Shown here: positions 6,085-25,626 of the stretch, in pieces
Numbering within the stretch: the stretch's first letter is position 1
How the letters are laid out: every line of letters starts with the position of its first letter
Assembly: GCA_031262035.1 (NCBI GenBank)
Contig: JAISIL010000067.1
Coordinates: 1-42,251, forward strand
Length of the DNA stretch: 42,251 nt
Direction of reading: 5' to 3'
From: Spirochaetaceae bacterium
GTDB taxonomy: Bacteria > Spirochaetota > Spirochaetia > Treponematales > Breznakiellaceae
Program-made: the position numbers and the translations under genes
The notes under the pieces: generated by a model
What the model saw: the letters and a program-made list of their open reading frames with translations, nothing else
Databases searched by the model: none
Told to the model about the DNA's origin: nothing

Positions 6085-6119
6085 TGTTAAGTTCACACCT
6101 TGGAATGACTATCTATTTA
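6085..6119 (+). promoter_or_regulatory. Regulon promoter copy 1 (TGTTAAGT-N16-CTATCTATTTA)
   Basis: TGTTAAGT at 6085-6092 and CTATCTATTTA at 6109-6119, separated by 16 bases and preceded by AAAAAG. It drives the CARF-like/sigma operon; GAAGGA follows before ATG 6133. Three other copies (7471, 9623, 20110) have identical spacing. Confidence 0.75.
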
Positions 6120-6753: not shown

Positions 6754-7476
6754 ATGAATAAAAATAAAACTATTAACGACACTATACAAGCGTTGAATAC
6801 ATCGCCCTATTTCTCTCTATTTGGAGAGAACATGGAAAGTGCACGGCAGGTGGCATGGTCAAAACTATGTCAAGATTGCTATCATTATGCAGAAATTATT
6901 GCTAACAAATTTAAACACCAGCGACATGCACTTGAAACACTGGATGATGAATCTGGCGGGAAATTGATTGACGAGGTGTATGAAATAATCAGAAAATGTC
7001 TTACGCCAGGATATTATAAACCGGAACGCGGTGTGCCTTTTTCTGCTTATTTCTATCAGTGTATTCGAAACGCAATTTCCCGAGCATGGCGGAGAAGCAG
7101 CAGGGTGAAGAACATGTTTTCTGAACAACACACAAAACTGAGTGCAGATGAGAAGGAAGAAATAGAGGAAGAGATGCGTGCTATTGATAAAGCATTTTGC
7201 AGTATGCAAGAACGGGTAAAGCCGTTTCGCAGTGCTTTACTTACTGTTCATCTCTATTCAGTGTTAGTGCTACTAGATATGGATGCTTCAAATAAGAAAT
7301 ATACTTTTGTTGATTATGGTATACTCGAAAATATTCGGAAAACAGGAAGAAAAAGAAGTCAGAGAGATATTGCAAAGATATTTGGTAAACACGAAGCGGC
7401 TGCAAGCCGTTCATTAACACAGGTGTTGGATTTAGCAAAAAAAGTGTATAAAAAAAATCTTAACGAAAAGTGTTAA
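6754..7476 (+). CDS. Sigma-70-family RNA polymerase sigma factor, probable regulon activator
   Basis: A 240-residue protein with the two features of small sigma-70-family factors. One is a region-2-like segment (GYYKPERGVPFSAYFYQCIRNAISRAWRR, residues about 89-115, here split by description: aromatic and basic residues suited to -10 melting). The other is a C-terminal helix-turn-helix (RSQRDIAKIFGKHEAAASRS, about 201-221) resembling region 4. It is longer than ordinary ECF factors and divergent; no anti-sigma gene with membrane segments is adjacent. It shares an operon with the CARF-like gene and is preceded by conserved promoter copy 1, while its stop codon lies inside the -35 box of copy 2. 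I infer that it recognises this promoter. The family assignment is moderately sure; the regulon link is inference. Confidence 0.65.
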   Translation: MNKNKTINDTIQALNTSPYFSLFGENMESARQVAWSKLCQDCYHYAEIIANKFKHQRHALETLDDESGGKLIDEVYEIIRKCLTPGYYKPERGVPFSAYFYQCIRNAISRAWRRSSRVKNMFSEQHTKLSADEKEEIEEEMRAIDKAFCSMQERVKPFRSALLTVHLYSVLVLLDMDASNKKYTFVDYGILENIRKTGRKRSQRDIAKIFGKHEAAASRSLTQVLDLAKKVYKKNLNEKC

Positions 7477-7505
7477 GTTTTCGGTTGCTACATACTATTT
7501 ATAGA
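7471..7505 (+). promoter_or_regulatory. Regulon promoter copy 2
   Basis: TGTTAAGT (7471-7478), 16 bases, CTATTTATAGA (7495-7505), preceded by GAAAAG. The TGTTAA also encodes the last Cys and stop of the sigma gene. A ribosome-binding site AGAGAGG (7519-7525) follows, before ATG 7532. Confidence 0.7.
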
Positions 7506-8206: not shown

Positions 8207-8674
8207 TTACCGCCCAGCCCCTGCCGTATGGGTCTGGGCGGCAGAATAGAGAGACTGCACCCGGTCGAGAGGAAGGTCGGTAGCGTAAGCAACCTCATCG
8301 GGTGACATACCATCAGCGACAAGCCTTTCAGCAACAGTAAGTGAAACACGTTCTTTGACTCCCATTTCAAAATAAGGTCTGGCGCCGATTTTATCAATAA
8401 ATTCAATAAATGAATTTCTATATTGTTCCATATCTACATCAGTTGGCCGATTTCTTATAAACTTATCAAGTTTGCAAAACATTTCGATTGGTTCTAAAGG
8501 TAAGTCAACCGCTTTCGCAAGTTCCATAGGGTCAATACCAAGATTGATAAACTCGTGAATAATCCGTGGCAATACAACAGGATTATGATAATAAATCATA
8601 TAGAGATAAGAAGCGCCTAAAGGCTCTTCTCTTTTTTGTGGCTGTTGTTTTACAGGTCGAAGACGTTTGCTCAT
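8207..8674 (-). CDS. Small protein sharing a C-terminal module with the upstream Rpn-like protein
   Basis: A 155-residue protein of unknown function. Residues 1-110 include IDPMELAKAVDLPLEPIEMF, which resembles one of the short helical repeats found in Rpn/PD-(D/E)XK-type proteins. The last 40 residues (AERLVADGMSPDEVAYATDL and following) closely match the end of the gene at 8674-9558, including the terminal THTAGA. No nuclease motif is visible. Its ATG overlaps the upstream stop as TAATG, so it is translationally coupled. It may be an inactive partial relative, antidote or partner of the neighbour. Confidence 0.65.
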   Translation of the reverse strand: MSKRLRPVKQQPQKREEPLGASYLYMIYYHNPVVLPRIIHEFINLGIDPMELAKAVDLPLEPIEMFCKLDKFIRNRPTDVDMEQYRNSFIEFIDKIGARPYFEMGVKERVSLTVAERLVADGMSPDEVAYATDLPLDRVQSLYSAAQTHTAGAGR

Positions 8675-9558
8675 TACCGCCTCGCCCCCGCTGTGTGGGT
8701 CTGGGATGCCGCATAGAGGGACTGCACCTGGTCGAGGGGAAGATCAGTGAAGTAAGATATTTGCTCCGCCGGAACATGTGAGGCCGCCATCTTTTGGGCA
8801 ATCTGCATTGATTTACGCTCTGCTTCCCAGTGTCCAATTATCGATGTGGCGCCAATTTCTTTGGCAAATTCTACAAATGGGTCTCTATCATATTTTTTTC
8901 GCATAATCTCCTCCATAGTATCACTATTTACTTTGCTAAACCAGTACATAAATGCCGATAATTGGGCATTATTACCGATTTTTGCACTTTCATCAAGAAT
9001 TTTGTCCACAGTAGCCGCTTCTACCCCTTCCCGCAGGCTGCTCACCCAGAGGCTATCGGCCACAGAAAGCCTCTTTGTCTCAATTATCTGTATTGGCAGA
9101 TGGTCACCTTCTATATTATATACCCCTGGCCACTTCTCGTCAAGGCCGAATTTCCGTTCTTTTTCAAGATAATCAATGAGACTTTTCGGGTGGCGATTTT
9201 CTACAAAGGTGATAGTCACATCATTATAAGAAATATTGCGCAGGGATACATACAGGTTGGCATAAGCCTGGACTTTGTAGAAGTCGCTCACCGTAAGGGA
9301 ATCATCGGGACTCTTGAATTCAATAAGATTATGGCCCCGGAAGATAGCCGCTATATTCTTTTTAATAACGACATCGGGCTTTTTCTTGATGATAACTACA
9401 TCAATCCGCAAGGGTTCTGTTGCCAGTTGATGTTCGGATTGAAAAGTCAGAGCATCGCTATAGTCTGAAAGGTCCAGTTGTATAGCGCCATAGAAGGAAT
9501 CATGCCAGGTTATTCGTTCTTTAGAATTGTCCGAGGTTTGCTGTTTGTTCGCTTTCAT
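8674..9558 (-). CDS. Rpn/PD-(D/E)XK-nuclease-like protein
   Basis: A 294-residue protein with a candidate PD-(D/E)XK core. RIDVVIIKKKP supplies an acidic residue and HNLIEFKSPDD gives the (E/Q)xK element (E-F-K), as in the Rpn/transposase-like nuclease superfamily abundant in treponemes. The C terminus carries the helical repeat AEQISYFTDLPLDQVQSLYA and ends THTAGARR, which the next gene repeats. I chose the ATG at 9558, not 9573, because a consensus promoter ends exactly 7 bases before it. Role (DNA cleavage, recombination or mobile-element origin) is unproven. Confidence 0.65.
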   Translation of the reverse strand: MKANKQQTSDNSKERITWHDSFYGAIQLDLSDYSDALTFQSEHQLATEPLRIDVVIIKKKPDVVIKKNIAAIFRGHNLIEFKSPDDSLTVSDFYKVQAYANLYVSLRNISYNDVTITFVENRHPKSLIDYLEKERKFGLDEKWPGVYNIEGDHLPIQIIETKRLSVADSLWVSSLREGVEAATVDKILDESAKIGNNAQLSAFMYWFSKVNSDTMEEIMRKKYDRDPFVEFAKEIGATSIIGHWEAERKSMQIAQKMAASHVPAEQISYFTDLPLDQVQSLYAASQTHTAGARR

Positions 9559-9564
9559 ATCGTA

Positions 9565-9593
9565 ACTATACAAAATTGTAGATATATTGTCAA
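9565..9593 (-). promoter_or_regulatory. Consensus promoter, leaderless start for the Rpn-like gene
   Basis: TTGACA (9593-9588), 17 bases, TATAGT (9570-9565) on the minus strand. The ATG at 9558 is 7 bases past the -10 box and has no ribosome-binding site. Confidence 0.75.
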
Positions 9594-9622: not shown

Positions 9623-9657
9623 TGTTAAGTTCCCCTACCACAACACCTATCTATATA
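9623..9657 (+). promoter_or_regulatory. Regulon promoter copy 3
   Basis: TGTTAAGT (9623-9630), 16 bases, CTATCTATATA (9647-9657), preceded by AAAAAC. It lies upstream of the 66-aa gene. Confidence 0.75.
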
Positions 9658-9701: not shown

Positions 9702-9902
9702 ATGTTTGATAGAACAGACCTAACAGACCGAAGCGGTAGACGCATCGGCACCATCGAAACACAACCTAACGGCAGCCAAATCATTATGGACCGTGGCGGT
9801 AATCGCCAAGGCACCTACGACCCCATGACCAACACAACCACTGACAGAGGCGGACAAGTGGTCGGCCACGGTAACCTACTCAGCGGGCTGCTGGATTGGT
9901 AA
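9702..9902 (+). CDS. Small Gly/Asp-rich repeat protein of the regulon
   Basis: A 66-residue protein of unknown function: hydrophilic, rich in Asp, Arg, Gly and Thr. Imperfect repeats of the type DRxGxRxG/GTYD recur (DRSGRRIGTIE, DRGGNRQGTYD, DRGGQVVGHG), reminiscent of short beta-hairpin YD/RHS-like repeats. It ends LLSGLLDW and has no signal peptide. GGAGGAG and conserved regulon promoter copy 3 make it very likely expressed; it is probably highly translated when the regulon is on. It is just upstream of the CoCoNuT-like operon but separated from it by a distinct promoter. Confidence 0.7.
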   Translation: MFDRTDLTDRSGRRIGTIETQPNGSQIIMDRGGNRQGTYDPMTNTTTDRGGQVVGHGNLLSGLLDW

Positions 9903-9955: not shown

Positions 9956-9984
9956 TTGCGAGATTTTAAGAAATTTGATATATT
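9956..9984 (+). promoter_or_regulatory. Promoter of the CoCoNuT-like operon
   Basis: TTGCGA (9956-9961), 17 bases, TATATT (9979-9984), followed by GAGGAG (9995-10000) and the TTG start at 10006. It is of ordinary sigma-70 type, not the regulon motif. Confidence 0.5.
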
Positions 9985-10005: not shown

Positions 10006-13000
10006 TTGAAGAATTCACGACTTGGGACTCCTATAATTGGCAACTTTAGCGCCGAACAATCTATTTCTGACAATGAGATACTTTATGTCAATAAACGGCA
10101 TGACTTCCTTATTATCAAAACGAAGCAAAATGACAATATTAAGCTTTTCCCAAAGGATGATGGTGCAGAAATAGTCATTAATCATTTTGGAATTGGATTA
10201 GACGAAAATAATGATTCTATATACACAGTTAAAACATGTTGGGAAAGAAGAAAAGAAAATATTGTTATTGTCCTATACTTATTCAAACAGACTCGTCGTA
10301 TTGAGTTGGAAAGTGAATCGTTGAATTTCTATCTTGAACGACTTGAAACCAGTAGGCTGATAACAGATGGTATCATGAAAAAAACTGATGAAATACAGTT
10401 TTTGGAGAAAGAATTTCTTGATGGAAGGAGTATATTTGTTATTGATGAATATCAAGGTGTAAACTCAAACAAATTTCAGATATTCGGGAATAAGTATCGT
10501 GCGGAATGTGAGTATGAACGACCTGGAGTTGTCAAGATTTCTAAAATAATTCAAACAAAGACAATTAATCGTAATAATGATATTGTACAGTATTTCGGAA
10601 ATGTGAAATTTGTATCCTTTGACGAGGCTATGCAAATACATGGGCATAAATACGAAAATCATCAAGTTGTAATAGATGATATATTTCAGATATGGAAGCA
10701 GTATGAAAACTATAAAGAGGAGATATCCAATAATGAGATACGGAAAAGGGGTTATATTCGTTATAAAGCATATACCATAAACAATGGTCTTTTGAATATT
10801 TCATTTGATAATGATGCAGATTATATAAATTTGTTTTTTGGTGATGATAATTCTGATGTTGAATTTGATATCATAACCTATGAGACTTCTGCTGATTTAC
10901 CTAACAGTATAGATGATATTTTATCATATAAAAAGGAAAACCAAAATAATATTATAACTGTTGGTAGTTGTGTCAAACTTGAAGGATTCAATATTTGGTT
11001 TTATTTACCAAAAAATATAGAGCGAATAACATCGCATGGAGTTCTTATTCATTCTGATAGAAATGTTAGAATTGAAAAACGCAGAAGAGATAGAATTTAT
11101 AATATTCTCAATTCAAGAAATAACCCTACAGCCAATATGATTATGAGATTAACTGCAGGTGATGCTGATTCACAAACTGGGGGACTTATAAACGATAAAG
11201 ATATTATAACTACAAATGTTTTGGATAAAATGTTCGGTGATGATAGTTTTAAAATAACTGAAAATTATCGAGAAGCGATTAAGATTGCACTGAATACACC
11301 AGATATTGCTCTTATACAAGGCCCACCAGGAACAGGCAAAACGACTTTGATTAAAGGAATTGTAGCCCGTTTAAATGAAATGAGTAACAAAAATTATAAA
11401 ATCCTTATTTCAACTGAGCAACATGACGCACTTTATAATGTGACAGATAAGTTGTCAGAAAATAAGTTATTGCCTCCGTTCATTGTGAGTAAAAGATTTA
11501 ATGAAAAGGATGGGAACCAAGAAGATAGTAATAATTTTATGAAGGACATTACCAATTTTCAATACGAATTTCAGACTTTATGCAATAATATTTTAAAAGA
11601 TAAAAAAGATAATAAAAATGATTTTTCAGCAGGATTAAGTCAAATTATTTATTGCATACAAAGTATCCGTCTTGCAAACTATTCCAATCAAGTAATTCGT
11701 GAGAACTTAGATGTGCTCTATAAAACAGCAATACAAATGAGTTTATCAAATACAGTAATAGATGTTATACAAGATATCAAATTTAAATTTAATTTCCAGA
11801 TAGAAAATGAAGATTGTAGCAATGAGATGTTAGACATTGAACAAGTCAAGCAAAAACTTAGCAATCAGCGAACAACTATTGAGGATTATAAAAATGATGG
11901 TTCATATCAATTAAAAGAACTACAACGTTGTCTTCGGAAAAGACCAAATTATGAGAAACTGCTGATTGAACAATCGTTATTGTCAAGAATGACTTCTGGC
12001 GATAATGATGCTCTTAAAACTTCATTTGATGAATATATCAAATATATTGATTATCTAAAAGATAAAATACTTTCTTTAAGTGTCAGCAATAGCGATGAGA
12101 ATATCCTGCAAGCGAAAAGTTTGTTTGACGAACTAATGTATAAACTTCAAGATGCTGTTAAGTCTCATAAAAAAGATTTTTTTGAGGTGGTTGAAGAATT
12201 GAAGTACAAATTGTTAGATATTGATAATGTTAATGCGCTTGTAAAGCGCTACACAAATATTATAGGAAGTACTTGTGCACAGGCAGGACGTAGTCTTGAT
12301 AGGGTTGAACTAAATAGCCATTCCTGTTTTGATTATGTTATTATTGATGAGGCTGCAAGAGCTAATCCATTGGATATTATGTTGCCAATACTAATGGGAA
12401 TACGTGTTATTCTGGTTGGTGACCAAAAACAATTACCACATTTTATCGAATCAAAAGAAGTTCGTGATTTTTTAGCAAATGATAAATACAAGAATTTGTA
12501 TGATAAAGAATTACTTGAAAAATCTTTGTTCGGGCTAATTTTTGAACGAGTAGAAGATTCATGGGAAAAGAAGAAATTAGTATTTAAACGACATATCAGA
12601 ATAAATGAACAACATCGTATGCATCCATCTATTGGCGATTTTATAAGTAAAGAATTTTATAATGGTGAAATCACAAATGGACCTAAAACATCTAATAATA
12701 TAAATGATTATAATGTTTTTGGGAATAAGAATGTTGCATGGCTTAATATTCCAATTATTGACGGAATGGAAGAAGGAAAGCCTTCATATTTCCGAATGAA
12801 AGAAGTAGATAAAGTACTTGAAACCATTAACATTATCGTACATAATCTAAAAGGGATGAAATCACATATTGGCGTGATTTCATTCTATAAAAAGCAAATA
12901 GAAATTATAGAAAGTATTATAAGCAATAAATATCCTGATAATATATCTACATTGATTGAATGTGGGACTGTTGATTCTTTTCAAGGCAAAGAATTTGATA

Positions 13001-13209
13001 TTGTTTTACTTTCAACGGTTCGTAGTAATGCCCATCAAACTCCCAGTGAAAGTCTTGGATTCATACATTATAGTGATAGCAGAATAAATGTTGCCCTTTC
13101 AAGAGCTAAGACATTGCTTGTGGTAATCGGTGACGCTGAAACATTTATGAAAAACTCAATTTTCAGAAATTTTATTAACTATGTCAAAAAGGAAGGGTTT
13201 TATGCCTGA
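10006..13209 (+). CDS. UPF1/Dna2-like superfamily 1 helicase of a CoCoNuT-like system
   Basis: A 1067-residue SF1 helicase of the AAA_11/AAA_12 (UPF1/SMUBP2-like) type. The Walker A GPPGTGKTT starts at residue 439 and the Walker B IIDEAARAN near 780, followed by GDQKQLPHF (motif III). EQHRMHPSIGDF is motif IV-like, TVDSFQGKEFDIV is motif V and NVALSRAK motif VI. About 430 residues precede the motor and a roughly 300-residue insertion separates motifs I and II. The start is TTG with GAGGAG upstream. It overlaps the next gene by 8 bases and begins a four-gene AT-rich operon. UPF1-like helicases of this kind are components of CoCoNuT type IV (McrBC-related) systems, thought to act on RNA; the enzymatic substrate here is inferred. 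Confidence 0.9.
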   Translation: MKNSRLGTPIIGNFSAEQSISDNEILYVNKRHDFLIIKTKQNDNIKLFPKDDGAEIVINHFGIGLDENNDSIYTVKTCWERRKENIVIVLYLFKQTRRIELESESLNFYLERLETSRLITDGIMKKTDEIQFLEKEFLDGRSIFVIDEYQGVNSNKFQIFGNKYRAECEYERPGVVKISKIIQTKTINRNNDIVQYFGNVKFVSFDEAMQIHGHKYENHQVVIDDIFQIWKQYENYKEEISNNEIRKRGYIRYKAYTINNGLLNISFDNDADYINLFFGDDNSDVEFDIITYETSADLPNSIDDILSYKKENQNNIITVGSCVKLEGFNIWFYLPKNIERITSHGVLIHSDRNVRIEKRRRDRIYNILNSRNNPTANMIMRLTAGDADSQTGGLINDKDIITTNVLDKMFGDDSFKITENYREAIKIALNTPDIALIQGPPGTGKTTLIKGIVARLNEMSNKNYKILISTEQHDALYNVTDKLSENKLLPPFIVSKRFNEKDGNQEDSNNFMKDITNFQYEFQTLCNNILKDKKDNKNDFSAGLSQIIYCIQSIRLANYSNQVIRENLDVLYKTAIQMSLSNTVIDVIQDIKFKFNFQIENEDCSNEMLDIEQVKQKLSNQRTTIEDYKNDGSYQLKELQRCLRKRPNYEKLLIEQSLLSRMTSGDNDALKTSFDEYIKYIDYLKDKILSLSVSNSDENILQAKSLFDELMYKLQDAVKSHKKDFFEVVEELKYKLLDIDNVNALVKRYTNIIGSTCAQAGRSLDRVELNSHSCFDYVIIDEAARANPLDIMLPILMGIRVILVGDQKQLPHFIESKEVRDFLANDKYKNLYDKELLEKSLFGLIFERVEDSWEKKKLVFKRHIRINEQHRMHPSIGDFISKEFYNGEITNGPKTSNNINDYNVFGNKNVAWLNIPIIDGMEEGKPSYFRMKEVDKVLETINIIVHNLKGMKSHIGVISFYKKQIEIIESIISNKYPDNISTLIECGTVDSFQGKEFDIVLLSTVRSNAHQTPSESLGFIHYSDSRINVALSRAKTLLVVIGDAETFMKNSIFRNFINYVKKEGFYA

Positions 13210-14653
13210 AGTTATAGATAGTGTTAGATGGCCTTTTTATCAATATAATATTCTCATGCCTGAATATATTGAAGCAGATATTTTTGTTTGGCTTTATCTA
13301 TCCTTAATTATTATGCAAAACGAGCAAGGTGGGCTTCCAAAAAATAGTTATGAGAAAGAAGAGAAACTTGCAGTTGAAACAATAATGAAAGAAAAGTTTT
13401 TCAATGTAATTGATAAAATTACATTGAAAAAAATTATTGCTTATGCAGAAAGAGATTATGTAGTTAGGGATGAAACAAATTTAATAAATAAGAGGAAAGA
13501 ACTTGATGATAAGACTTTTGAATTTGTAGAAACTTTTAGTAGTCTTTTTTCTGATAAACTTCAAATTCAAAAGGTATATATGGATGCTATTACAGGTAAT
13601 GTAGTGCCTATTTTCGATGCTTTACCTTATATAAAAGATTGTAAAGATGAAAATATTGCAAGGCTTACTAAGTTAATTGATGATAAACCTTCTGCCAATA
13701 CAGTGAAATCTGCATACAGTCATTATAAAGAATTATCTAAGACCGAAAAATCTGAAATGGAGGTAAATGGTAAAGGTATTGATACTATTTTGAATATAAA
13801 AGAACCACGGGAATCTGATTTTAACATTATCTTTCTTGAAGATAAGGGGACTTTATTTAATTTTGAAGTAAAAATAGAAATTGATGATAATGAGATAAAA
13901 GTATCAACACCCTTTGGCCAAGATAATGTGAAAAATATAACATATATGTGGATGCAGACATGTTTTAAGGAAGCTAGAAGCGTCTGTAAAGAGTTAGATG
14001 AAAAGATAAAAGAGATTGAAACACAATATTTGTATGATAATAAAATTATAAATAAGGAAAACTCTACAATATTTAATATCAGTGTTTCAGACCAACTTCC
14101 TGTCTGTGGAAATATATATCGTTTACTTGAAACAGTAAAGATGAATAATGTTGAAACTATAAATAAAGCAAAGAAAATTCTAATTTCCATTGATAATTAT
14201 TATACCGAGCAATCAAAATACTACTTTCTAGAAATAGGTAGTTTTCTGGAATGTTTAATTTCAGTGCTTGTAGAACATAAAGATATGATGAAAAGGAAAT
14301 TAACGACTGAACATGTTTTTAGAACAGCTATTAAGAGTGCTTGCTCAAGAGTAAAAGTTGACTATAGTTTAATGATGGGTTATGAAATATTTTATAATTG
14401 GGAAAAGGGCCGTGTAAATTTTAAATCTGACATGGCAGATATTGTCTACAGTAATATACATTTTCTACGATGTCCTTCACTCTATTGGGATTTTGTTAAT
14501 GATGCTTTTAGCCTTTACAATTTAAGAAATCAACAGGCTGCACACTATCATTCTGATAATGATTTTAGAAATGCAATTGATAAATTACAAATTGATAAAC
14601 TATATAATATTACAAAAGTCTTTTTAGACTTAAATCAAGGAGGAACAATATGA
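13202..14653 (+). CDS. CoCoNuT-operon protein with C-terminal HEPN-like RNase motif
   Basis: A 483-residue protein that I do not recognise over its full length. Near the C terminus, SLYNLRNQQAAHYHSD contains R442-N-x4-H448, the R-x(4-6)-H signature of HEPN RNases (with the common Asn after Arg), in a predicted helical context. The first about 400 residues are mixed alpha/beta with many Lys/Glu. The start at 13202 is preferred over 13181 because AAGGAAGGG precedes it, and it overlaps the helicase stop (ATGCCTGA). Its stop overlaps the next ATG. Its position between helicase and McrB-like gene suggests an RNA-cleaving component of the system; HEPN is inferred from one motif. Confidence 0.6.
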   Translation: MPEVIDSVRWPFYQYNILMPEYIEADIFVWLYLSLIIMQNEQGGLPKNSYEKEEKLAVETIMKEKFFNVIDKITLKKIIAYAERDYVVRDETNLINKRKELDDKTFEFVETFSSLFSDKLQIQKVYMDAITGNVVPIFDALPYIKDCKDENIARLTKLIDDKPSANTVKSAYSHYKELSKTEKSEMEVNGKGIDTILNIKEPRESDFNIIFLEDKGTLFNFEVKIEIDDNEIKVSTPFGQDNVKNITYMWMQTCFKEARSVCKELDEKIKEIETQYLYDNKIINKENSTIFNISVSDQLPVCGNIYRLLETVKMNNVETINKAKKILISIDNYYTEQSKYYFLEIGSFLECLISVLVEHKDMMKRKLTTEHVFRTAIKSACSRVKVDYSLMMGYEIFYNWEKGRVNFKSDMADIVYSNIHFLRCPSLYWDFVNDAFSLYNLRNQQAAHYHSDNDFRNAIDKLQIDKLYNITKVFLDLNQGGTI

Positions 14654-16827
14654 GTAAGAAAGGAAAAAGTGGAAACAACAAACCAAAACCATCAATTCAA
14701 ACTAAAAAACCGACAGAAATTCAACAACCAACTTCACCTGAAGTAAAAGAAGGTTTAACAGAAAGAAACCGATTGATTAACGAAGGTGAGAGTAAAAAGA
14801 AAGAACTAATTGCTCAAGGTGAGAAACTAAGGCAAGAAATTGAGTCTAAAGCCAAAAGTGAAGTCGCAAAAGAAGAAGATAAAATCAAAAAATCATATAT
14901 AGATGAAGTCAAAGATAAAGCAATTGAAGAAGCAAATAAAGAAAAGGAAAAAATACTCAAGGCGATAGAAAAAGAAAAGAAGGCAACTGAAATATTGGCT
15001 CATGATATTGATGTAAAAAATGAGACAATTGAAGCAATAAGACAATCTCTGGAACAAAAGCAGCAACAATTACTTGAAGAAAAGACAAATTTTGAAAAAG
15101 AAAAAAAAATTTATAAGACAGAATATCTTGCTTCTTTACAAGATGACCTAGACAATTTACGAGCAGAAAAAGAAAATGTTGAGAGTGAAAATCTACAGTT
15201 AAATAAAAAATTGTCTCAGCTAGAAAAAGAGAATAAATTTGGCGAGGAAGACCGCAATGCACTTGAAGAAGAATTACGAGATGCACAGGGATTTCGTGCA
15301 GAGAGAATTAAATTACAATCTAAGATTTACAATTTGGAAAATGATAATGAAACAATTAGAAAACTATATAGTAATTCTCAGGATGAACTTAATGAGGCGA
15401 AAAATACAATAGAACGTTATGGAGATGACCCACAACAAACTCTTCATGAAAATGAAACACTAAAAGCAAGAATTGAACAACTTCAAAATAGAATTGCAAA
15501 TTATCCCGATGATTATGAATTATTAAGTCTACGAAAAGTAAATGAAGATTATGAGAAAATCAGAGATGAAAACGAAACATTACATAATGAAAAAATAATG
15601 CTTGAGCGTGAACTTATTGATTATAAAATGTATAAAGAAGATTGTGAGAACAAGGACCGCTCAATAAAATGTAAAGAACGGCAACTTTGTGAATTGCAAA
15701 CTGAATTAGATAAAATTACAGATATATATAATAAAAATTTCAAAAAAGTTTTTTCAAGCCTTTCAGAAATTGATGAATGGTTAATTAATCCGATCTATAA
15801 CACAACTAATTACAATCTTAAGGAAATTTGTGAATATTTCAAATATTATCTTGCTACACAGAGTCAACCGCATTTATATTATGATATGCGTCACATACGA
15901 ACTTTTATAGCCGGTATGGCTGCATCTAAGATTTTAATACTTGAAGGTATGAGTGGCACAGGAAAATCAAGCATGCCTCGTGAGTTTGGGAAATTCATTG
16001 GTTGTGACACATCTGAAATACCTGTCCAGTCTTCATGGAAAGACAGAAATGACATACTAGGCTATTATAATGATTTTGAAAAACGATATAAAGAAACAGA
16101 ATTTCTTAAGAAATTGTATTGGGCAATTAGAGATAAAGAAAATGTTCATTGCATCATGTTAGATGAAATGAATCTGTCTAGAATTGAATATTATTTTGCA
16201 GATTTTCTTTCTGTGCTTGAAAAACCATATCAGCATGATTGGAAAATAAATCTTATACCAGATTTTGTTAGAGGTGAAATGCCGGAACTGTTAGACCAAC
16301 ATGGTGATTTACTCTTAACGAATAATATTTGGTTTATTGGGACTGCAAATAAAGATGATTCAACGTTTACTATAACCGATAAGGTATATGATAGAGCAGT
16401 CGTATTGAATTTTAGGGAAAAAGCCACAGAACAACCAATTGATAAACGAATATATCCATTAAATATCAGTTTTCATGAGTTTCAGTCTTTATTAACAAAC
16501 GCTATAAAACCGAGTCCGCAAGAAAAAGATAAACTATCTAATATCATTGATTATCTTGATATGTTATTAACTGATTTTGAAATAGGGTTTGGAAACAGAA
16601 TAAAGTCTCAAATAGAAAAGTTTGTTCCTGCATATATAAAATGTGGTGGAAAACTGGAAGAAGGTGTCGATATTATTTTTTCAACTAAAGTTCTTAGAAA
16701 AATACAAGGTTATGATGATAAAACAAAGACTAATCTTGATGAACTTTATAAAGAACTGGATAAAAACTATCCATCTGATTTTCTGGAGTCAAAAAAACAC
16801 ATCACCAAGTTGAAAGAGAGCATATAA
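14650..16827 (+). CDS. Coiled-coil McrB-like AAA+ ATPase (CnuB-like)
   Basis: A 725-residue motor of McrB type. Residues about 40-380 are a long Glu/Lys-rich coiled coil (many EKEK/ENE heptads). Then comes the AAA+ domain: Walker A GMSGTGKSS (433-441), Walker B with the McrB-type sequence MLDEMNLSR (about 500-508), and WFIGTANKDDS (about 559-569), the sensor-1/NxxD region typical of McrB. McrB proteins hydrolyse GTP and drive an associated McrC nuclease; the N-terminal coiled coil is the hallmark of CoCoNuT CnuB proteins. It overlaps the previous gene by 4 bases (ATGA) and is immediately followed by the DUF2357 gene. No modified-base or YTH-like reader domain is apparent at its N terminus. 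Confidence 0.85.
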   Translation: MSKKGKSGNNKPKPSIQTKKPTEIQQPTSPEVKEGLTERNRLINEGESKKKELIAQGEKLRQEIESKAKSEVAKEEDKIKKSYIDEVKDKAIEEANKEKEKILKAIEKEKKATEILAHDIDVKNETIEAIRQSLEQKQQQLLEEKTNFEKEKKIYKTEYLASLQDDLDNLRAEKENVESENLQLNKKLSQLEKENKFGEEDRNALEEELRDAQGFRAERIKLQSKIYNLENDNETIRKLYSNSQDELNEAKNTIERYGDDPQQTLHENETLKARIEQLQNRIANYPDDYELLSLRKVNEDYEKIRDENETLHNEKIMLERELIDYKMYKEDCENKDRSIKCKERQLCELQTELDKITDIYNKNFKKVFSSLSEIDEWLINPIYNTTNYNLKEICEYFKYYLATQSQPHLYYDMRHIRTFIAGMAASKILILEGMSGTGKSSMPREFGKFIGCDTSEIPVQSSWKDRNDILGYYNDFEKRYKETEFLKKLYWAIRDKENVHCIMLDEMNLSRIEYYFADFLSVLEKPYQHDWKINLIPDFVRGEMPELLDQHGDLLLTNNIWFIGTANKDDSTFTITDKVYDRAVVLNFREKATEQPIDKRIYPLNISFHEFQSLLTNAIKPSPQEKDKLSNIIDYLDMLLTDFEIGFGNRIKSQIEKFVPAYIKCGGKLEEGVDIIFSTKVLRKIQGYDDKTKTNLDELYKELDKNYPSDFLESKKHITKLKESI

Positions 16828-18618
16828 ATGCGTAAGAAAGAAAAGAAGTATTTAAGGCATTTTACAAAAGCTTTTCTAGAACTGTTCCCAGAAGGGGGGA
16901 GAGGAAATGATATTATCTTAAATGTTACTAACAAAAAACTTCTTCTTGAACCAGAAGTTTCAGAATCATCAATAAAGATAGATAATGAGTGTATAAATAA
17001 AATAAAAGAAGTTTTGCCATATCTTTTCAGAATTTTAGAGAAACCACATACGTTTATTGTATCATATGAAGATAAATTACCTGTGTCAACAGCGAAAAGA
17101 ATCAGTAAAAAGGCTATTACTCACTTAACTCAGGATAGCAATGATTGGTTTGGAAGAACATTTTTATCAATTATACCAAAAAATATTTTATCAGAACAGA
17201 ATGAAGAAACTTTTTCTATTTATGAGAACAGATTTGTTGTTACATTAATAGATAAACTTTATGCATATATTCAAAATAGATACAATGAGATTGACAAACT
17301 ATATAGGCAATTAGAAAATGAACGTGCCCAAAAGAAACTAGAAGAGCGTGGATATATTAGATTTTCAGCAGAGGATAATTTATTATTAAAAAGTTTGCTA
17401 CGAAAAGGAAGAAATCCATTGGAAGTTGATATTACAATAAATGAGGTATATGAGGAGAGGCAAGTTATCAAGAAACTTAAACAAAAATTGTATAGTATGA
17501 AACAATCTGTAATGTATTCTGATTTAAAACGATGTAGACCTGTTAATAGTCCAATTCAAAAAACAAATATCCTTATTTTTGACCATAATTACAATATGGC
17601 TTATAGAATGTGGGAATACTTATACAAAGTTAATAATGAATATATTATCACTATTGAAGATAATACGATACAATTCGTAGATATGTTTTACAATTTGTAT
17701 TTATTGATTAGTATTTTCTGTGTGTTACAGAATATGAAATATACTATTGATAAAGATACATTGGTTATGTTTAAGAATAATAAAATATATATAAGTAATA
17801 CTATGATATGGAAGAATAGTCAGAATGGAATTAAGATTAATTTAGAATATTATAATGATGAAATAAAATTAGAATTCTATTTCATCAACAATAATAAAAA
17901 ATTTGATACAATTATAATTACCCCTAATTATAATATTGATTTTGAAGATAAAATAATAACAGAAATTGTAGAAGAAAAACAAGAATTACTAAATTACTCT
18001 ATTCAAAAACTCCTTAATGAAAAAATAAACATTTCATATTTTTATTCGCTTTCTATTGATGTCCCACATTGCTGTGGCAGTGATAATGATTGGGGTACGT
18101 CTGTATATCGAAATCTTTATAATATTGGTGATAACTATCCGGAAACAGAACAAGATATTAATTTATTATCAAATTATAAATCAGGTATGATTATAATTAC
18201 ACCTGATAATTTTCAAACAAACTTTTCACGATTAGAACGTTTAATTAATTCCAGGATTTTTAGACATACTATCAAAACTTTAGATATAGAAAAATGTCCA
18301 ATATGTGGCAGTTCAAATATCAAGAAAATAAATAATGGGAAAGAAATATTATGTTTTTCTTGCAAACATAATATTTCTATATCTCTTTGTAAAAATTGTA
18401 ATAATGAGTTCCTTTGGATAAAATATATAGATGATAAATTCCTAAAAATTGAAGAAGTTACTGAAGGAATAGAAAGAATGCCGTATTACTATCAAATCCT
18501 TAGATATGAATCAATAATGGGAGAATATGCTATTACATCTTTTACTATTGAGAAAGAAAATGAAGAATGGAAACTAAAAAGCCTTTGTCCAAAGTGCGGG
18601 CATAAATTGGGAGAATAA
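16828..18618 (+). CDS. DUF2357/McrC-like protein with C-terminal zinc ribbons (CnuC-like)
   Basis: A 596-residue protein of the DUF2357/McrC-like group that pairs with McrB-type ATPases. Typical features are the segment YENRFVVTLIDKLYAYI (about residues 131-147), a coiled arm, and NILIFDHNYNMAYRMWEYL (about 249-267). The C terminus carries Cys pairs CPICGSSN (about 490) and CFSCKHN, then CKNCNN and CPKCGHK, suggesting two zinc ribbons. A clear PD-(D/E)XK catalytic set, expected in McrC, is not obvious between them, so nuclease activity may be diverged, lost or supplied by the HEPN-like protein. It abuts the McrB-like stop (16827/16828) and is the last gene of the AT-rich operon. Confidence 0.7.
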   Translation: MRKKEKKYLRHFTKAFLELFPEGGRGNDIILNVTNKKLLLEPEVSESSIKIDNECINKIKEVLPYLFRILEKPHTFIVSYEDKLPVSTAKRISKKAITHLTQDSNDWFGRTFLSIIPKNILSEQNEETFSIYENRFVVTLIDKLYAYIQNRYNEIDKLYRQLENERAQKKLEERGYIRFSAEDNLLLKSLLRKGRNPLEVDITINEVYEERQVIKKLKQKLYSMKQSVMYSDLKRCRPVNSPIQKTNILIFDHNYNMAYRMWEYLYKVNNEYIITIEDNTIQFVDMFYNLYLLISIFCVLQNMKYTIDKDTLVMFKNNKIYISNTMIWKNSQNGIKINLEYYNDEIKLEFYFINNNKKFDTIIITPNYNIDFEDKIITEIVEEKQELLNYSIQKLLNEKINISYFYSLSIDVPHCCGSDNDWGTSVYRNLYNIGDNYPETEQDINLLSNYKSGMIIITPDNFQTNFSRLERLINSRIFRHTIKTLDIEKCPICGSSNIKKINNGKEILCFSCKHNISISLCKNCNNEFLWIKYIDDKFLKIEEVTEGIERMPYYYQILRYESIMGEYAITSFTIEKENEEWKLKSLCPKCGHKLGE

Positions 18619-19277: not shown

Positions 19278-20084
19278 ATGGCAAAGATACTTGTTCAACA
19301 GACTGAAATTTCAGTTATTTCACAGAGTGAGAGCGATTACATCTCTCTTACCGACATGGCAAAGTCCAAATCTGACGAACCTGCTCAGGTTATCAGGAAT
19401 TGGATGCGTAACAGAATGACCATCGAATACCTTGGGTTATGGGAAATTCTTTATAACCCGGATTTTAAACCTGTCGAATTCGACAGGTTTAGACGGGATG
19501 CAGGTCTCAATTCATTTACCCTTTCTCCTCAAACATGGGTAGAAAAGACATCCGCCTTAGGCATTATTGCAAAATCCGGGCGTTATGGGGGAACTTTTGC
19601 CCACAAGGATATTGCATTTAAGTTTGCCTCATGGATTTCAACTGAATTTGAATTGTATCTGGTCAAAGAATTTCAGCGGCTAAAAAATGAGGAGCAGGCA
19701 AAACTTGGCTGGTCTGCAAAACGAGAATTGGCCAAAATTAACTATCATATTCATACGGATGCAATTAAAGAAAACCTTATTCCCTCGGAACTTACTCCAA
19801 AACAGGCATCAAGCATTTATGCCGATGAAGCAGATGTCTTGAATGTAGCGCTTTTTGGTATGACAGCCCGGCAATGGCGGGAACAGAATATCGGCAAAAA
19901 GGGAAATATCCGCGATTATGCAAACATCAACGAACTAATCTGTCTTTCAAATATGGAAAATATAAATGCTATGCTGATACATGACGGTGCCAGCCAACAT
20001 GACCGGCTCTTGAGGCTTAATAAGATAGCAATTCAGCAAATGACTATTCTAGCCGGTGTAGAAAACAGAAGGTTGTTGAAATAA
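19278..20084 (+). CDS. KilA-N domain protein
   Basis: A 268-residue KilA-N protein, a DNA-binding family carried by phages and other mobile elements. Conserved hallmarks are YISLTDMAK, VIRNWMRNRMTIEYLGLWE, AGLNSFTLSPQTWVE, GRYGGTFAHKDIAFKFASWI and EFELYLVKEFQRLK. The C-terminal half (ELTPKQASSIYADEADVLNV and following) is the usual accessory region of stand-alone bacterial members. Function unknown; defence, antirepressor and toxin roles have been proposed for the family. It stands alone and is probably a remnant of an integrated element. A 24-bp perfect palindrome lies inside it. Confidence 0.85.
   Translation: MAKILVQQTEISVISQSESDYISLTDMAKSKSDEPAQVIRNWMRNRMTIEYLGLWEILYNPDFKPVEFDRFRRDAGLNSFTLSPQTWVEKTSALGIIAKSGRYGGTFAHKDIAFKFASWISTEFELYLVKEFQRLKNEEQAKLGWSAKRELAKINYHIHTDAIKENLIPSELTPKQASSIYADEADVLNVALFGMTARQWREQNIGKKGNIRDYANINELICLSNMENINAMLIHDGASQHDRLLRLNKIAIQQMTILAGVENRRLLK
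19467..19490. repeat. 24-bp perfect palindrome inside the KilA-N gene
   Basis: Arms AAACCTGTCGAA (19467-19478) and TTCGACAGGTTT (19479-19490), with no loop. It encodes KPVEFDRF. The TTCGACAGG half is shared with the family-A repeats. Confidence 0.7.
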
Positions 20085-20109: not shown

Positions 20110-20144
20110 TGTTAAGTCTCTTTTCCATAGCGACTATCTATTTA
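20110..20144 (+). promoter_or_regulatory. Regulon promoter copy 4
   Basis: TGTTAAGT (20110-20117), 16 bases, CTATCTATTTA (20134-20144), preceded by AAAAAC. The lipoprotein ATG at 20149 follows directly, so this transcript is also likely leaderless. Confidence 0.75.
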
Positions 20145-20148
20145 CAGA

Positions 20149-21138
20149 ATGACAAAAATAGTTTTCCGACTAATACTTCTTCTCACGATTTTATTCCTGC
20201 TTTCAGCCTGCGCCACAGGGATGCAGCCCGTGGAACAATCTCCAGAACCATCAAGGTCGGAACTGAGCGAAATTACCGCCGATTTTATTCAATCGTCAAA
20301 CATAGAAAATGCGATATACGGTAAAGATATTGCACTAAACTTTCAAGATGGCTACCTTATAACAGATTTTACTAACCTTTTTCGCAGTTCTGTAGTCCAG
20401 TGCTCAACGGTAGTATTCTCGGATAATTCAATCATCCAGCGGGAGATTAACCGGCAATTATCGGGTAATGTTGATGACAGTGAGGCAATCAAAATAGGAC
20501 ATCAGAAGGGCGCAGAAATTGTGCTGAACTTGGATTTATACAAGCTGCCGGGAACAGAAATGATTGATATAAAGCTCATTGCTGCAAATATCAGTCTAAA
20601 TACTTTGACGCTGGAATATTCCAAACACTATCAGTGTCCTCTTGGGTTTGATATTGAATATGTCCGGGAACAAAACGAAACACGAAAAGGAACGATGAAA
20701 AGAATTGTGGGCGATATATTTGCACAAAATGACCAAGGAATTTACACACAATCTACCCGGAATGTTAGTATAACAGGCATAGGGCCATCCCATATTGAAA
20801 TACCTCAGCACACTCTTGATTTGCATATAAATAGATATAAATATGATGAAATAAATCCGCAAAAAATCAATTATTATAAAATTGATGTATCAAATATGCA
20901 CAGTATTTGTATCTATTCAAAACAATACACACAATACTATGCTGATATATGGCTAACTGTGTATGATGGAAATGGAGACAGTATTGCTAATACTGATGAC
21001 GGATTTCCATGCACAATAAATATTCCTAACCGCTATAATGGGTATATTTATCTGCGAGTAAATAGCTATAATGATAATTCAATTGGTTCCTATCACATAG
21101 GTTATAGTAGAAATGCTTATTCTGAACCGAGAGGGTAA
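20149..21138 (+). CDS. Lipoprotein with CsgG/LpoB-like N-terminal and PPC-like C-terminal domains
   Basis: A 329-residue lipoprotein with lipobox LLSACATG (acylated Cys at about residue 21). Residues about 45-170 (VVFSDNSIIQREINRQLSG, AIKIGHQKGAEIVLNLDLYK) resemble the CsgG/LpoB/FlgO-like fold common in treponemal lipoproteins. The last about 110 residues (YYKIDVSNMHSICIYSKQ, LTVYDGNGDS, YIYLRVNSYN) resemble bacterial pre-peptidase C-terminal (PPC)-type beta domains. It probably sits in the periplasm or outer membrane. It is the first gene of a run of secreted proteins and is preceded directly by regulon promoter copy 4, linking the cell envelope to the same control as the CARF/sigma block. 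Exact function unknown. Confidence 0.7.
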   Translation: MTKIVFRLILLLTILFLLSACATGMQPVEQSPEPSRSELSEITADFIQSSNIENAIYGKDIALNFQDGYLITDFTNLFRSSVVQCSTVVFSDNSIIQREINRQLSGNVDDSEAIKIGHQKGAEIVLNLDLYKLPGTEMIDIKLIAANISLNTLTLEYSKHYQCPLGFDIEYVREQNETRKGTMKRIVGDIFAQNDQGIYTQSTRNVSITGIGPSHIEIPQHTLDLHINRYKYDEINPQKINYYKIDVSNMHSICIYSKQYTQYYADIWLTVYDGNGDSIANTDDGFPCTINIPNRYNGYIYLRVNSYNDNSIGSYHIGYSRNAYSEPRG

Positions 21139-24163: not shown

Positions 24164-24192
24164 TTGTAAAAATTGCTCAAATAGTGTATACT
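24164..24192 (+). promoter_or_regulatory. Consensus promoter, leaderless start for the beta-CASP gene
   Basis: TTGTAA (24164-24169), 17 bases, TATACT (24187-24192). ATG 24199 is 7 bases past the -10 box. The GTG at 24184 would overlap the -10 box and cannot be the start of this transcript. Confidence 0.75.
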
Positions 24193-24198
24193 TTTACT

Positions 24199-25626
24199 AT
24201 GGATATAAACTTTTATTCCCTTGGGGCTGCCGAAGAGGTTACCGGATCTAAGCATATTCTTGAAGTGGGCGGCTCCGATTCTGTTCCGCCCCAGACTTTT
24301 CTGGTAGATTGCGGGTCTTTTCAGGGGAAGCGGGCCGAGGCGAACAGGAAAAACCAAAATATCGGGATAGAAGCTGATAGAATTGATGCGGCGATTCTTA
24401 CCCACGGGCATCTTGACCACTGTGGCATCTTTCCGCTGCTTACAAAACAGGGTTACAGGGGAAATATTTATACAACGCCTGCAAGCCGCGACCTTGCAAA
24501 CCTTATCATGATGGATTCTGCTAAAATTCAGTTTTATGATGCAAAGTTTCTCCGTTCCCAGGCGGCAAAAAAGGGCGAAAAGTTTAACTGGCAGCCCCTT
24601 TATTCAGAGGCCGATGCTATTCAGGCGGCAAGCCAGATGGTCGGCCTTTCATACAACAGGCCGATGCCCATTGGCGATGGGGTGAAGCTTGAGTTTTACG
24701 ATGCCGGCCATATCCTCGGTTCAAGTTTTGCGATGGTGACTGTGGGGAAGGGCACCGAAGAAAAACGCATCCTTTTTAGCGGCGATATAGGCCGGCCGGG
24801 GAAGCCTATTATTCGCAACCCGGCAAAGGATGTTCCTGCACCGGATTATATCATTCTGGAAAGCACCTATGGGGACAGGCTGCACGAAAAAGCAAAGGAC
24901 GCTCTAAAACAATTGGCCGAAATTGCCAAGCGCTGTGTTGAAACCAAGGGGCGCATCATCATACCTTCATTTGCAATAGAGCGAACACAGGAATTGGTCT
25001 ACTATTTTCATCTGCTTGTGGACAATGGCCTTATACCCGAGCTGCCTATCTATGTAGACAGCCCCATGGCGACAAACGCTACCACCATCTTTCAGGTGCA
25101 TCCTGAGTGCTATGACGAAGAAACAAGGCAGGCCTTTATTCAGCACCATAAAAACCCCTTTGGTTTTAACAGCCTGCACTTTACCTCGAGTGTAGAAGAT
25201 TCCAAGGCCCTGAATACCATGCCCGGCCCCCTTATTATCATTTCCGCAGACGGTATGTGCGAAGCCGGCCGGATTCAGCATCATCTGATTAATAGCATCG
25301 AAGACCCCAATACGACTATATTAATCGTCGGCTATATGGCCGAAGGCACTTTGGGAAGGCGCATCTACCGCAGGGAGACAGAGCTTCGCATTCATGGGGA
25401 ATGGTTTAAACGAAAGGCTGCCGTAGAAAACCTCAATGCCTTTAGCGCCCATGGCGATTATGCCGAGATGATTGCCTGGCTAAAAAGCATTGATACAAGC
25501 CGCCTTAAAAGAATCTTTTTGGTTCACGGAGAACCTGCAGCACAGTCTGCATTTAAAAAACATCTTGCCGATAATAAATATAATGATGTTACTATTTCAC
25601 GCTACGGAGAGACCTACGAACTTTAA
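24199..25626 (+). CDS. Metallo-beta-lactamase/beta-CASP ribonuclease
   Basis: A 475-residue beta-CASP (CPSF73/Ysh1-like) nuclease acting on RNA, presumably in RNA processing or decay. The metal motifs are LTHGHLDHCG (near residue 60), DAGHILGS (near 168) and FSGDIGR. The beta-CASP domain has IPSFAIERTQELVYY, YVDSPMAT and ISADGMCEAGRIQHHL, and the C-terminal LVHGEPAA supplies motif C histidine. All catalytic residues appear intact. Likely cytoplasmic. The downstream TPR gene overlaps its 3' end. Confidence 0.9.
   Translation: MDINFYSLGAAEEVTGSKHILEVGGSDSVPPQTFLVDCGSFQGKRAEANRKNQNIGIEADRIDAAILTHGHLDHCGIFPLLTKQGYRGNIYTTPASRDLANLIMMDSAKIQFYDAKFLRSQAAKKGEKFNWQPLYSEADAIQAASQMVGLSYNRPMPIGDGVKLEFYDAGHILGSSFAMVTVGKGTEEKRILFSGDIGRPGKPIIRNPAKDVPAPDYIILESTYGDRLHEKAKDALKQLAEIAKRCVETKGRIIIPSFAIERTQELVYYFHLLVDNGLIPELPIYVDSPMATNATTIFQVHPECYDEETRQAFIQHHKNPFGFNSLHFTSSVEDSKALNTMPGPLIIISADGMCEAGRIQHHLINSIEDPNTTILIVGYMAEGTLGRRIYRRETELRIHGEWFKRKAAVENLNAFSAHGDYAEMIAWLKSIDTSRLKRIFLVHGEPAAQSAFKKHLADNKYNDVTISRYGETYEL

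Follow-up and report, generated by a model that had tools for sequence, protein, structure and literature searches.

A compact Type II-like CoCoNuT in a spirochaete island with a CARF and sigma-70-like gene pair and a candidate private promoter

What kind of defence system do four overlapping genes of a Spirochaetaceae bacterium encode, and what switches them on? The genes occupy positions 10006-18618 of contig JAISIL010000067.1, which was analysed whole (42,251 nt; the window in what follows) and belongs to a 3.07 Mb genome in 215 contigs. An initial annotation of this DNA had taken them for a CoCoNuT, a McrBC-related system, acquired by transfer and set in a possibly regulon-linked island. 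Judged from their sequences, these genes form a compact, Type II-like version of a CoCoNuT; the class is known, the variant new. The overall reading that we propose, and hold to be rather probable, is that this CoCoNuT serves in RNA-cutting defence within an island run by a CARF protein and a sigma-70-like factor through a private promoter.

The four open reading frames (ORFs) are uninterrupted, lie on the + strand and follow the order H-E-B-C: a UPF1-like helicase, a HEPN-type protein, a coiled-coil McrB-like GTPase and a DUF2357 zinc-ribbon protein (Table 1). Their coordinates confirm the single operon described in the initial annotation, with stop/start overlaps of 8, 4 and 0 bases; the 8-base value uses the ATG at 13202, and an alternative start of the cnuE frame at ATG 13181 gives 490 amino acids (aa). 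CnuH is an SF1 helicase of the UPF1/SEN1/IGHMBP2 kind (AAA_12, 1.6e-41; AAA_11, 1.2e-30; PDB matches to Sen1 at 4e-32 and UPF1 at 1e-26). It carries the large insertion that separates the Walker A and B motifs in the UPF1-like helicases of Type II, its motif I (Walker A) lying 342 residues from the DEAA box (325-350 in Type II references), and residues 118-425 match the N-terminal region of Type II CnuH (E 5e-19), for which SmpB-like (SPB) and RNase-toxin-like (RTL) domains have been described (Bell et al. 2024, PMC11090510). For CnuB the best PDB match is Escherichia coli McrB, AAA_5 being reached only below its cut-off, and the Walker A, LDEMNLSRIEYYFADFLS and GTANKDD motifs (the last in the context GTANKDDST) are all intact; the McrB-like GTPases of CoCoNuTs are defined by an NxD motif, in most cases with E or D as the next residue (PMC11090510). 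A coiled coil of about 400 residues precedes Walker A; its heptad score exceeds that of all 300 shuffles, and it contains 2% Pro+Gly and 41% E/K/R/Q. We note that the PADLOC candidate model PDC-M26A (138 bits) covers both the coiled coil and the GTPase, and this undescribed candidate may itself be a CoCoNuT. CnuC scores 35.3 bits for DUF2357 against a Pfam cut-off of 23.3, and no nuclease family was matched in the domain search; Type II CnuC has been described as carrying an inactivated PD-(D/E)xK fold (PMC11090510). Residues 306-364 of CnuC are beta-rich in a low-confidence model, and the VIA matches of that model are generic helical stalks.

CnuE gave no family match in sequence-based domain searches. 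It has one HEPN domain with an RxxxxH-type motif, as is characteristic of Type II, although RNQQAAH is one residue longer than RxxxxH; the relatives L040 and L041, introduced below, carry RNxxSH-type motifs. The C-terminal 180 residues are modelled as a helical bundle, for which the VIA structural matches at Z 4-7 include three Csm6 structures, two HEPN toxin entries, RnlA and Csx1, as well as vinculin tails and rhodopsins. Since Z scores of 4-7 are no proof for helical folds, the HEPN assignment is carried by the RN..H motif and by homology to Type II CnuE. Foldseek found nothing significant for the CnuE or the CnuC model. The N-terminal part of the CnuE model, the position at which Type II CnuE has an elongated winged helix-turn-helix (PMC11090510), is of low confidence. 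The HEPN-motif protein of the initial annotation is thus borne out by motif, profile and helical model. In a separate observation, CnuE of five Lachnospiraceae Type II systems (L045, L046, L048, L069 and L084) has lost the HEPN R-x4-6-H motif.

When the window clade was aligned by hhalign with profiles of the Type II proteins from 13 loci, all four proteins matched over most of their length (H 8e-118, E 4.5e-13, B 6e-121 and C 1.5e-51), CnuE over its full length, and four mismatched controls gave E-values of 0.08-0.5. Against Type III-A profiles only H and the GTPase domain of B matched well, with no convincing match for CnuE (E 0.008, probability 5%). The comparison with CnuB, CnuC, CnuH and HEPN models, which the initial annotation had named as a check, matched all four proteins to their Type II counterparts. 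The features that mark the class as a whole are also present, namely an NxD GTPase, a long coiled coil, a McrC partner without a recognised nuclease and a tightly encoded HEPN-type gene. With Type II the operon shares the H-E-B-C order, the UPF1-like helicase, the one HEPN in CnuE, the coiled-coil NxD GTPase and a DUF2357 protein with a zinc ribbon and no recognisable active nuclease; CARF regulators are also known to accompany that type (PMC11090510).

A genome scan seeded with CnuB yielded 80 loci. The types given below were assigned by comparing the order of the genes and the sizes of their products with the published description (PMC11090510). Two Clostridiales metagenome-assembled genomes (L040 and L041) encode the same four genes at equal lengths (about 1062/490/736/597 aa), with H, E and C 33-47% identical to those of the window and with VWA, kinase and phosphatase genes preceding them. 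The compact variant is common to the window and these two genomes, which carry the TerY-P triad in the order VWA-STK-PP2C, as against VWA-PP2C-STK in Type II CoCoNuTs. The H-E-B-C order recurs in L040, L041, L043-L046, L023 and plasmid references, and Type II layouts were seen in Bacillota (L043-L046, L048, L069, L084), in the treponeme G230 (L023) and on Deinococcus, cyanobacterial and betaproteobacterial plasmids (L121-L125). Four further loci (L025, L026, L028, L126) resemble Type III-A, and L127 resembles III-B.

The operon stands out in composition, as the initial annotation had observed for these 8.6 kb relative to both flanks. Its GC (guanine plus cytosine) content is 29.1%, compared with 45.0% in the remaining window and 46.5% in a genome sample of 102 kb from 11 other contigs, and each of the four genes lies 3.3-4.2 standard deviations under the GC of the genome's genes. 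The low GC is restricted to 10006-18618; the flanks, including the vWA and CARF genes, are genome-like. Of the 394 genomes compared within this order, the present one is the only one with the CnuE family. Because of the low GC and this distribution, we consider that the operon was probably acquired from AT-rich bacteria, in line with the transfer first suggested for it, and Bacillota are the most likely donor. Carriage by a prophage or plasmid was considered and rejected, CnuE being absent from the plasmid collection; for CnuC, six plasmids and one phage gave matches that covered under half of the protein. No match for the operon was found among viral contigs, a weak negative as the search peptides were weakly specific. 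No tRNA or flanking repeats that could mark insertion boundaries were found around the operon, and a search of Rfam found no structured RNA.

The second part of the question concerns control, and the private promoter set together with the CARF-sigma pair is the more surprising part of the locus. A promoter-like motif, TGTTAAGT-N16-CTATYTAT, was spotted by eye when upstream sequences were compared, and stands before four genes (Table 1). A search of the whole 3.07 Mb allowing up to one mismatch found it four times, all in the island, all on the + strand and all exact, and the reversed pattern, used as a control, gave no match. In shuffled windows with three mismatches allowed, about one match is expected and at least four occurred in 1 of 100 shuffles; the set draws its strength from the exactness of its matches and from the count over the whole genome, not from this test. 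As the motif was read off its own four sites, the informative facts are that the genome has no other sites and that a copy exists in another genome of the order, G310. A slightly relaxed pattern found four other single sites in 244 genomes of the order. The G310 site (one mismatch, 15-base spacer) precedes an operon ending in an orthologous CARF-sigma pair, with CARF 57% identical; the remaining three have no CARF-sigma pair nearby and may be due to chance. A shared promoter motif was also sought for the other, more divergent CARF-sigma loci and was not found. We note that at the G310 locus (L151 1-8636) a Cas1-like ORF and repeated sequence of CRISPR-like appearance are found at a distance of about 1 kb from the pair.

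CARF homologs were present in 30 of the 244 genomes, and at 16 of 20 CARF loci the next same-strand gene belongs to the sigma-like family. Nine of these 16 loci fed the sigma-like profile; among 11 other loci the pair was found in seven. When the family profile was compared with the PDB, most of the 60 rows were sigma factors (SigA/RpoS/RpoD; best E 3.5e-5). Four CARF homologs of the window's family (L165-L168) have no adjoining sigma-like gene. In two other treponemes the pair heads a CoCoNuT. G230 has one contiguous same-strand run, CARF-SIG-VWA-PP2C-STK-H-E-B-C, and G287 (L182 3378-7943 with L025) has another contiguous same-strand run, CARF-SIG-VWA-CARF/PD-DExK-VWA-PP2C-..., before a Type III-A CoCoNuT. 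The first VWA of the G287 run is TerY-type and is followed by a CARF4-PD-(D/E)xK effector, a second VWA and phosphatase genes. Elsewhere the CARF-sigma pair precedes AbiD-like and PDC-S01 genes. The initial annotation had pointed to vWA and CARF genes within 4 kb as known companions of such systems. Both are there, but the vWA protein, tried as the TerY of a TerY-P triad, was rejected (20% identity, E 0.04).

Table 1. Coordinates of the CoCoNuT operon, its sequence motifs and the genes and sites of the putative regulon
Feature	Position	Strand	Remarks
Motif TGTTAAGT-N16-CTATCTAT	6085-6116	+	before CARF-sigma pair
Single-domain CARF protein, 204 aa	6133-6747	+	CARF2 family (PADLOC 244 bits), Csx1-like
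Sigma-70-like protein, 240 aa	6754-7476	+	region 2 above Pfam cut-off; C-terminal helix-turn-helix
Motif copy CTATTTAT	7471-7502	+	before vWA gene 7532
vWA-domain protein, 222 aa	7532-8200	+	
Motif copy	9623-9654	+	before small gene 9702-9902
Small gene, 66 aa	9702-9902	+	ribosome-binding site GGAGGAG; stop 103 bases 5' of cnuH
cnuH-like ORF, 1067 aa	10006-13209	+	TTG start, AGGAG immediately 5'
CnuH motif I GPPGTGKT	11320-11343	+	
cnuE-like ORF	13202-14653	+	483 aa from ATG 13202, preceded by AGGAAGGG
CnuE HEPN motif RNQQAAH	14525-14545	+	R, N, H invariant in three-member clade
cnuB-like ORF, 725 aa	14650-16827	+	
CnuB Walker A GMSGTGKS	15946-15969	+	
CnuB NxD signature NKD, then D	16348-16356	+	
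cnuC-like ORF, 596 aa	16828-18618	+	
CnuC zinc-ribbon region	18295-18618	+	cysteine pairs CPIC, CFSC, CKNC, CPKC
Motif copy	20110-20141	+	before gene 20149
Lipoprotein-like gene	20149-21138	+	downstream of fourth motif

Several findings pull against the reading proposed here, some bearing on what the operon is and others on what controls it. As to identity, a tree of GTPase domains places the window clade sister to 26 CoCoPALM-like rows (support 96/93) and not inside Type II. The N-terminal beta-sandwich stated for all Type II CnuCs (PMC11090510) is absent from CnuC, which is 60-100 residues shorter before DUF2357 and is modelled as helical there; for this reason we file the operon as a Type II-like variant and not as plain Type II. 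Residues 1-112 of CnuH show no match to the Type II SPB region, the TerY-P triad, common but not core in Type II (PMC11090510), is absent from the operon, an STK query matched nothing in the genome, and in the literature found there is no CoCoNuT with a demonstrated phenotype or mechanism. One explanation is that the operon is nearer to CoCoPALM, or is a separate NxD McrBC lineage that has kept the helicase and HEPN genes and acts on a target other than RNA. CoCoPALM GTPase domains are indeed the closest in the tree, which bears directly on the phylogeny outside the CoCoNuT branch that the initial annotation had named as a refutation. Holding the window clade with Bacillota Type II, however, costs 10.2 log units and is not rejected (approximately unbiased (AU) test, p 0.057), and the tree does not settle the type because its sequences were chosen for their similarity to the window and leave out Type I. 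The helicase tree groups the window clade with Bacillota Type II at 97/94; the stem that leads to the clade is long, at 2.4 changes per column. CnuE and CnuC match Type II. The CoCoPALM-like systems of the tree (CoCoPALM itself is described in PMC11090510) have hydrophobic N-termini, signal-peptidase-type neighbours and no helicase or HEPN genes, and the window is unlike them on all counts: its CnuB N-terminus, with a heptad signal and 41% E/K/R/Q, is not membrane-type, and it has no gene for a signal peptidase beside it, unlike L047, L063 and L095. With no FtsB-like transmembrane segment and no such neighbour the architecture is wrong for CoCoPALM itself, and we consider the whole explanation improbable. 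The CoCoNuT identification is supported by the NxD motif, coiled coil, gene order and four profile matches. Mokosh type I consists of the MkoA helicase with the kinase partner MkoB, and it might be suspected that an RNA-helicase defence of the Mokosh kind lies here beside two McrBC-like genes unrelated to it, as PADLOC MkoA matches the related SF1 helicase of the window at 1.8e-105. This is scarcely tenable, since the match is to the helicase only, no kinase or PLD partner adjoins, the H, E and B frames overlap one into the next and the H-E-B-C order is conserved in distant genomes. Nor is the operon at all likely to be a decayed, non-functional remnant; it is AT-rich, single-copy and without TerY-P, yet all four frames are open and their catalytic motifs intact.

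As to control, no copy of the motif stands directly before cnuH. The 103-base gap between the small gene and cnuH holds a stable hairpin (-30 kcal/mol, z -1.3), a sigma-70-like promoter match (TTGCGA-17-TATATT with a TG element, 9956-9984) lies just before cnuH, and only the window's member of the sigma-like family passes the Pfam sigma cut-off. Perhaps, then, the CoCoNuT came to lie among the CARF-sigma regulated genes by chance, inserted into the island with its own promoter and outside the regulon. The missing motif, the hairpin, the promoter-like match and the AT-richness confined to 10006-18618 between genome-like flanks would all fit such an insertion. Weighing on the other side, the motif at 9623 precedes a same-strand gene that ends just short of cnuH, no terminator-like site was found on the + strand between the two, and in two other treponemes the same CARF-sigma pair and the CoCoNuT form one contiguous run. 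We regard a chance insertion as unlikely, though far from negligible, and control of this CoCoNuT by the CARF-sigma pair as likely. The regulon link of the initial annotation is upheld for the flanking genes by the four-site motif set; for the CoCoNuT itself it depends on read-through from the small gene.

We propose that, by analogy with McrB and McrC, CnuB would form an NTP-driven ring activated by the DUF2357 stalk of CnuC, and that the coiled coil, the zinc ribbon and the UPF1-like CnuH may recognise aberrant or phage RNA and feed it to the complex. The HEPN domain of CnuE would cut RNA, with the result that the phage is restricted or the cell halted; RNA targeting and phage defence by CoCoNuTs are predictions in the literature (PMC11090510). 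Upstream, the CARF protein may sense a nucleotide or RNA-end signal of infection and free or activate the sigma-like factor. Acting at the motif, the two would switch on their own genes, the vWA gene, the small gene and gene 20149, and read-through from the small gene probably drives cnuHEBC. The weakest steps are this read-through over 103 bases and the assignment of the motif to the sigma-like protein.

Other features of the window may be mentioned briefly. Lipoprotein matches among its proteins are to BB0158 and LPP20. Between the CoCoNuT and gene 20149 lies a gene for a KilA-N protein (19278-20084), which matches the PADLOC candidate PDC-S22 at 438 bits; the gene has a promoter match of its own, TTGACA/TATAGT. 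The gene at 24184-25626 encodes a beta-CASP metallo-beta-lactamase related to aCPSF1 and type VII Cas14 (368 bits, below the cut-off of 800), with no cas genes beside it. On the - strand at 8207-9573, two adjacent ORFs with near-identical C-terminal peptides (LPLD.VQSLY.A.QTHTAGA.R) resemble a duplicated gene.

The published account ties Type II CoCoNuTs to RtcR, a CARF activator of sigma-54 promoters, and makes no mention of a sigma factor gene (PMC11090510). As in the RtcR-regulated superoperons, an upstream CARF protein in the window would link a signal, presumably RNA or a nucleotide, to the transcription of a defence operon. RtcR, however, is one CARF-AAA-HTH (HTH, helix-turn-helix) protein, whereas the window has, in its place, a CARF protein and a sigma-70-like factor encoded by two genes. 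The CalpL-CalpT-CalpS system of type III CRISPR likewise leads from a nucleotide sensor to a freed sigma factor (PMC11229360); in the window no Lon protease or anti-sigma gene was recognised and the sensor is a bare CARF domain. Tentatively, and with slightly less than even confidence, we suggest that a treponeme cassette of two genes, for a bare CARF protein and for a sigma-70-like factor dedicated to a promoter sequence of its own, heads defence operons, among them two CoCoNuT types and other candidates, and that in this genome it controls a regulon of one island to which the compact CoCoNuT belongs, as an infection-triggered switch like RtcR or Calp but built differently. The link of CoCoNuTs to CARF proteins is a published hypothesis, and the present locus, which supplies a compact four-gene CoCoNuT and a CARF-sigma pair with an exact, genome-unique promoter sequence, makes CARF control directly testable. 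If true, it would add another kind of infection-triggered transcription control to those already known.

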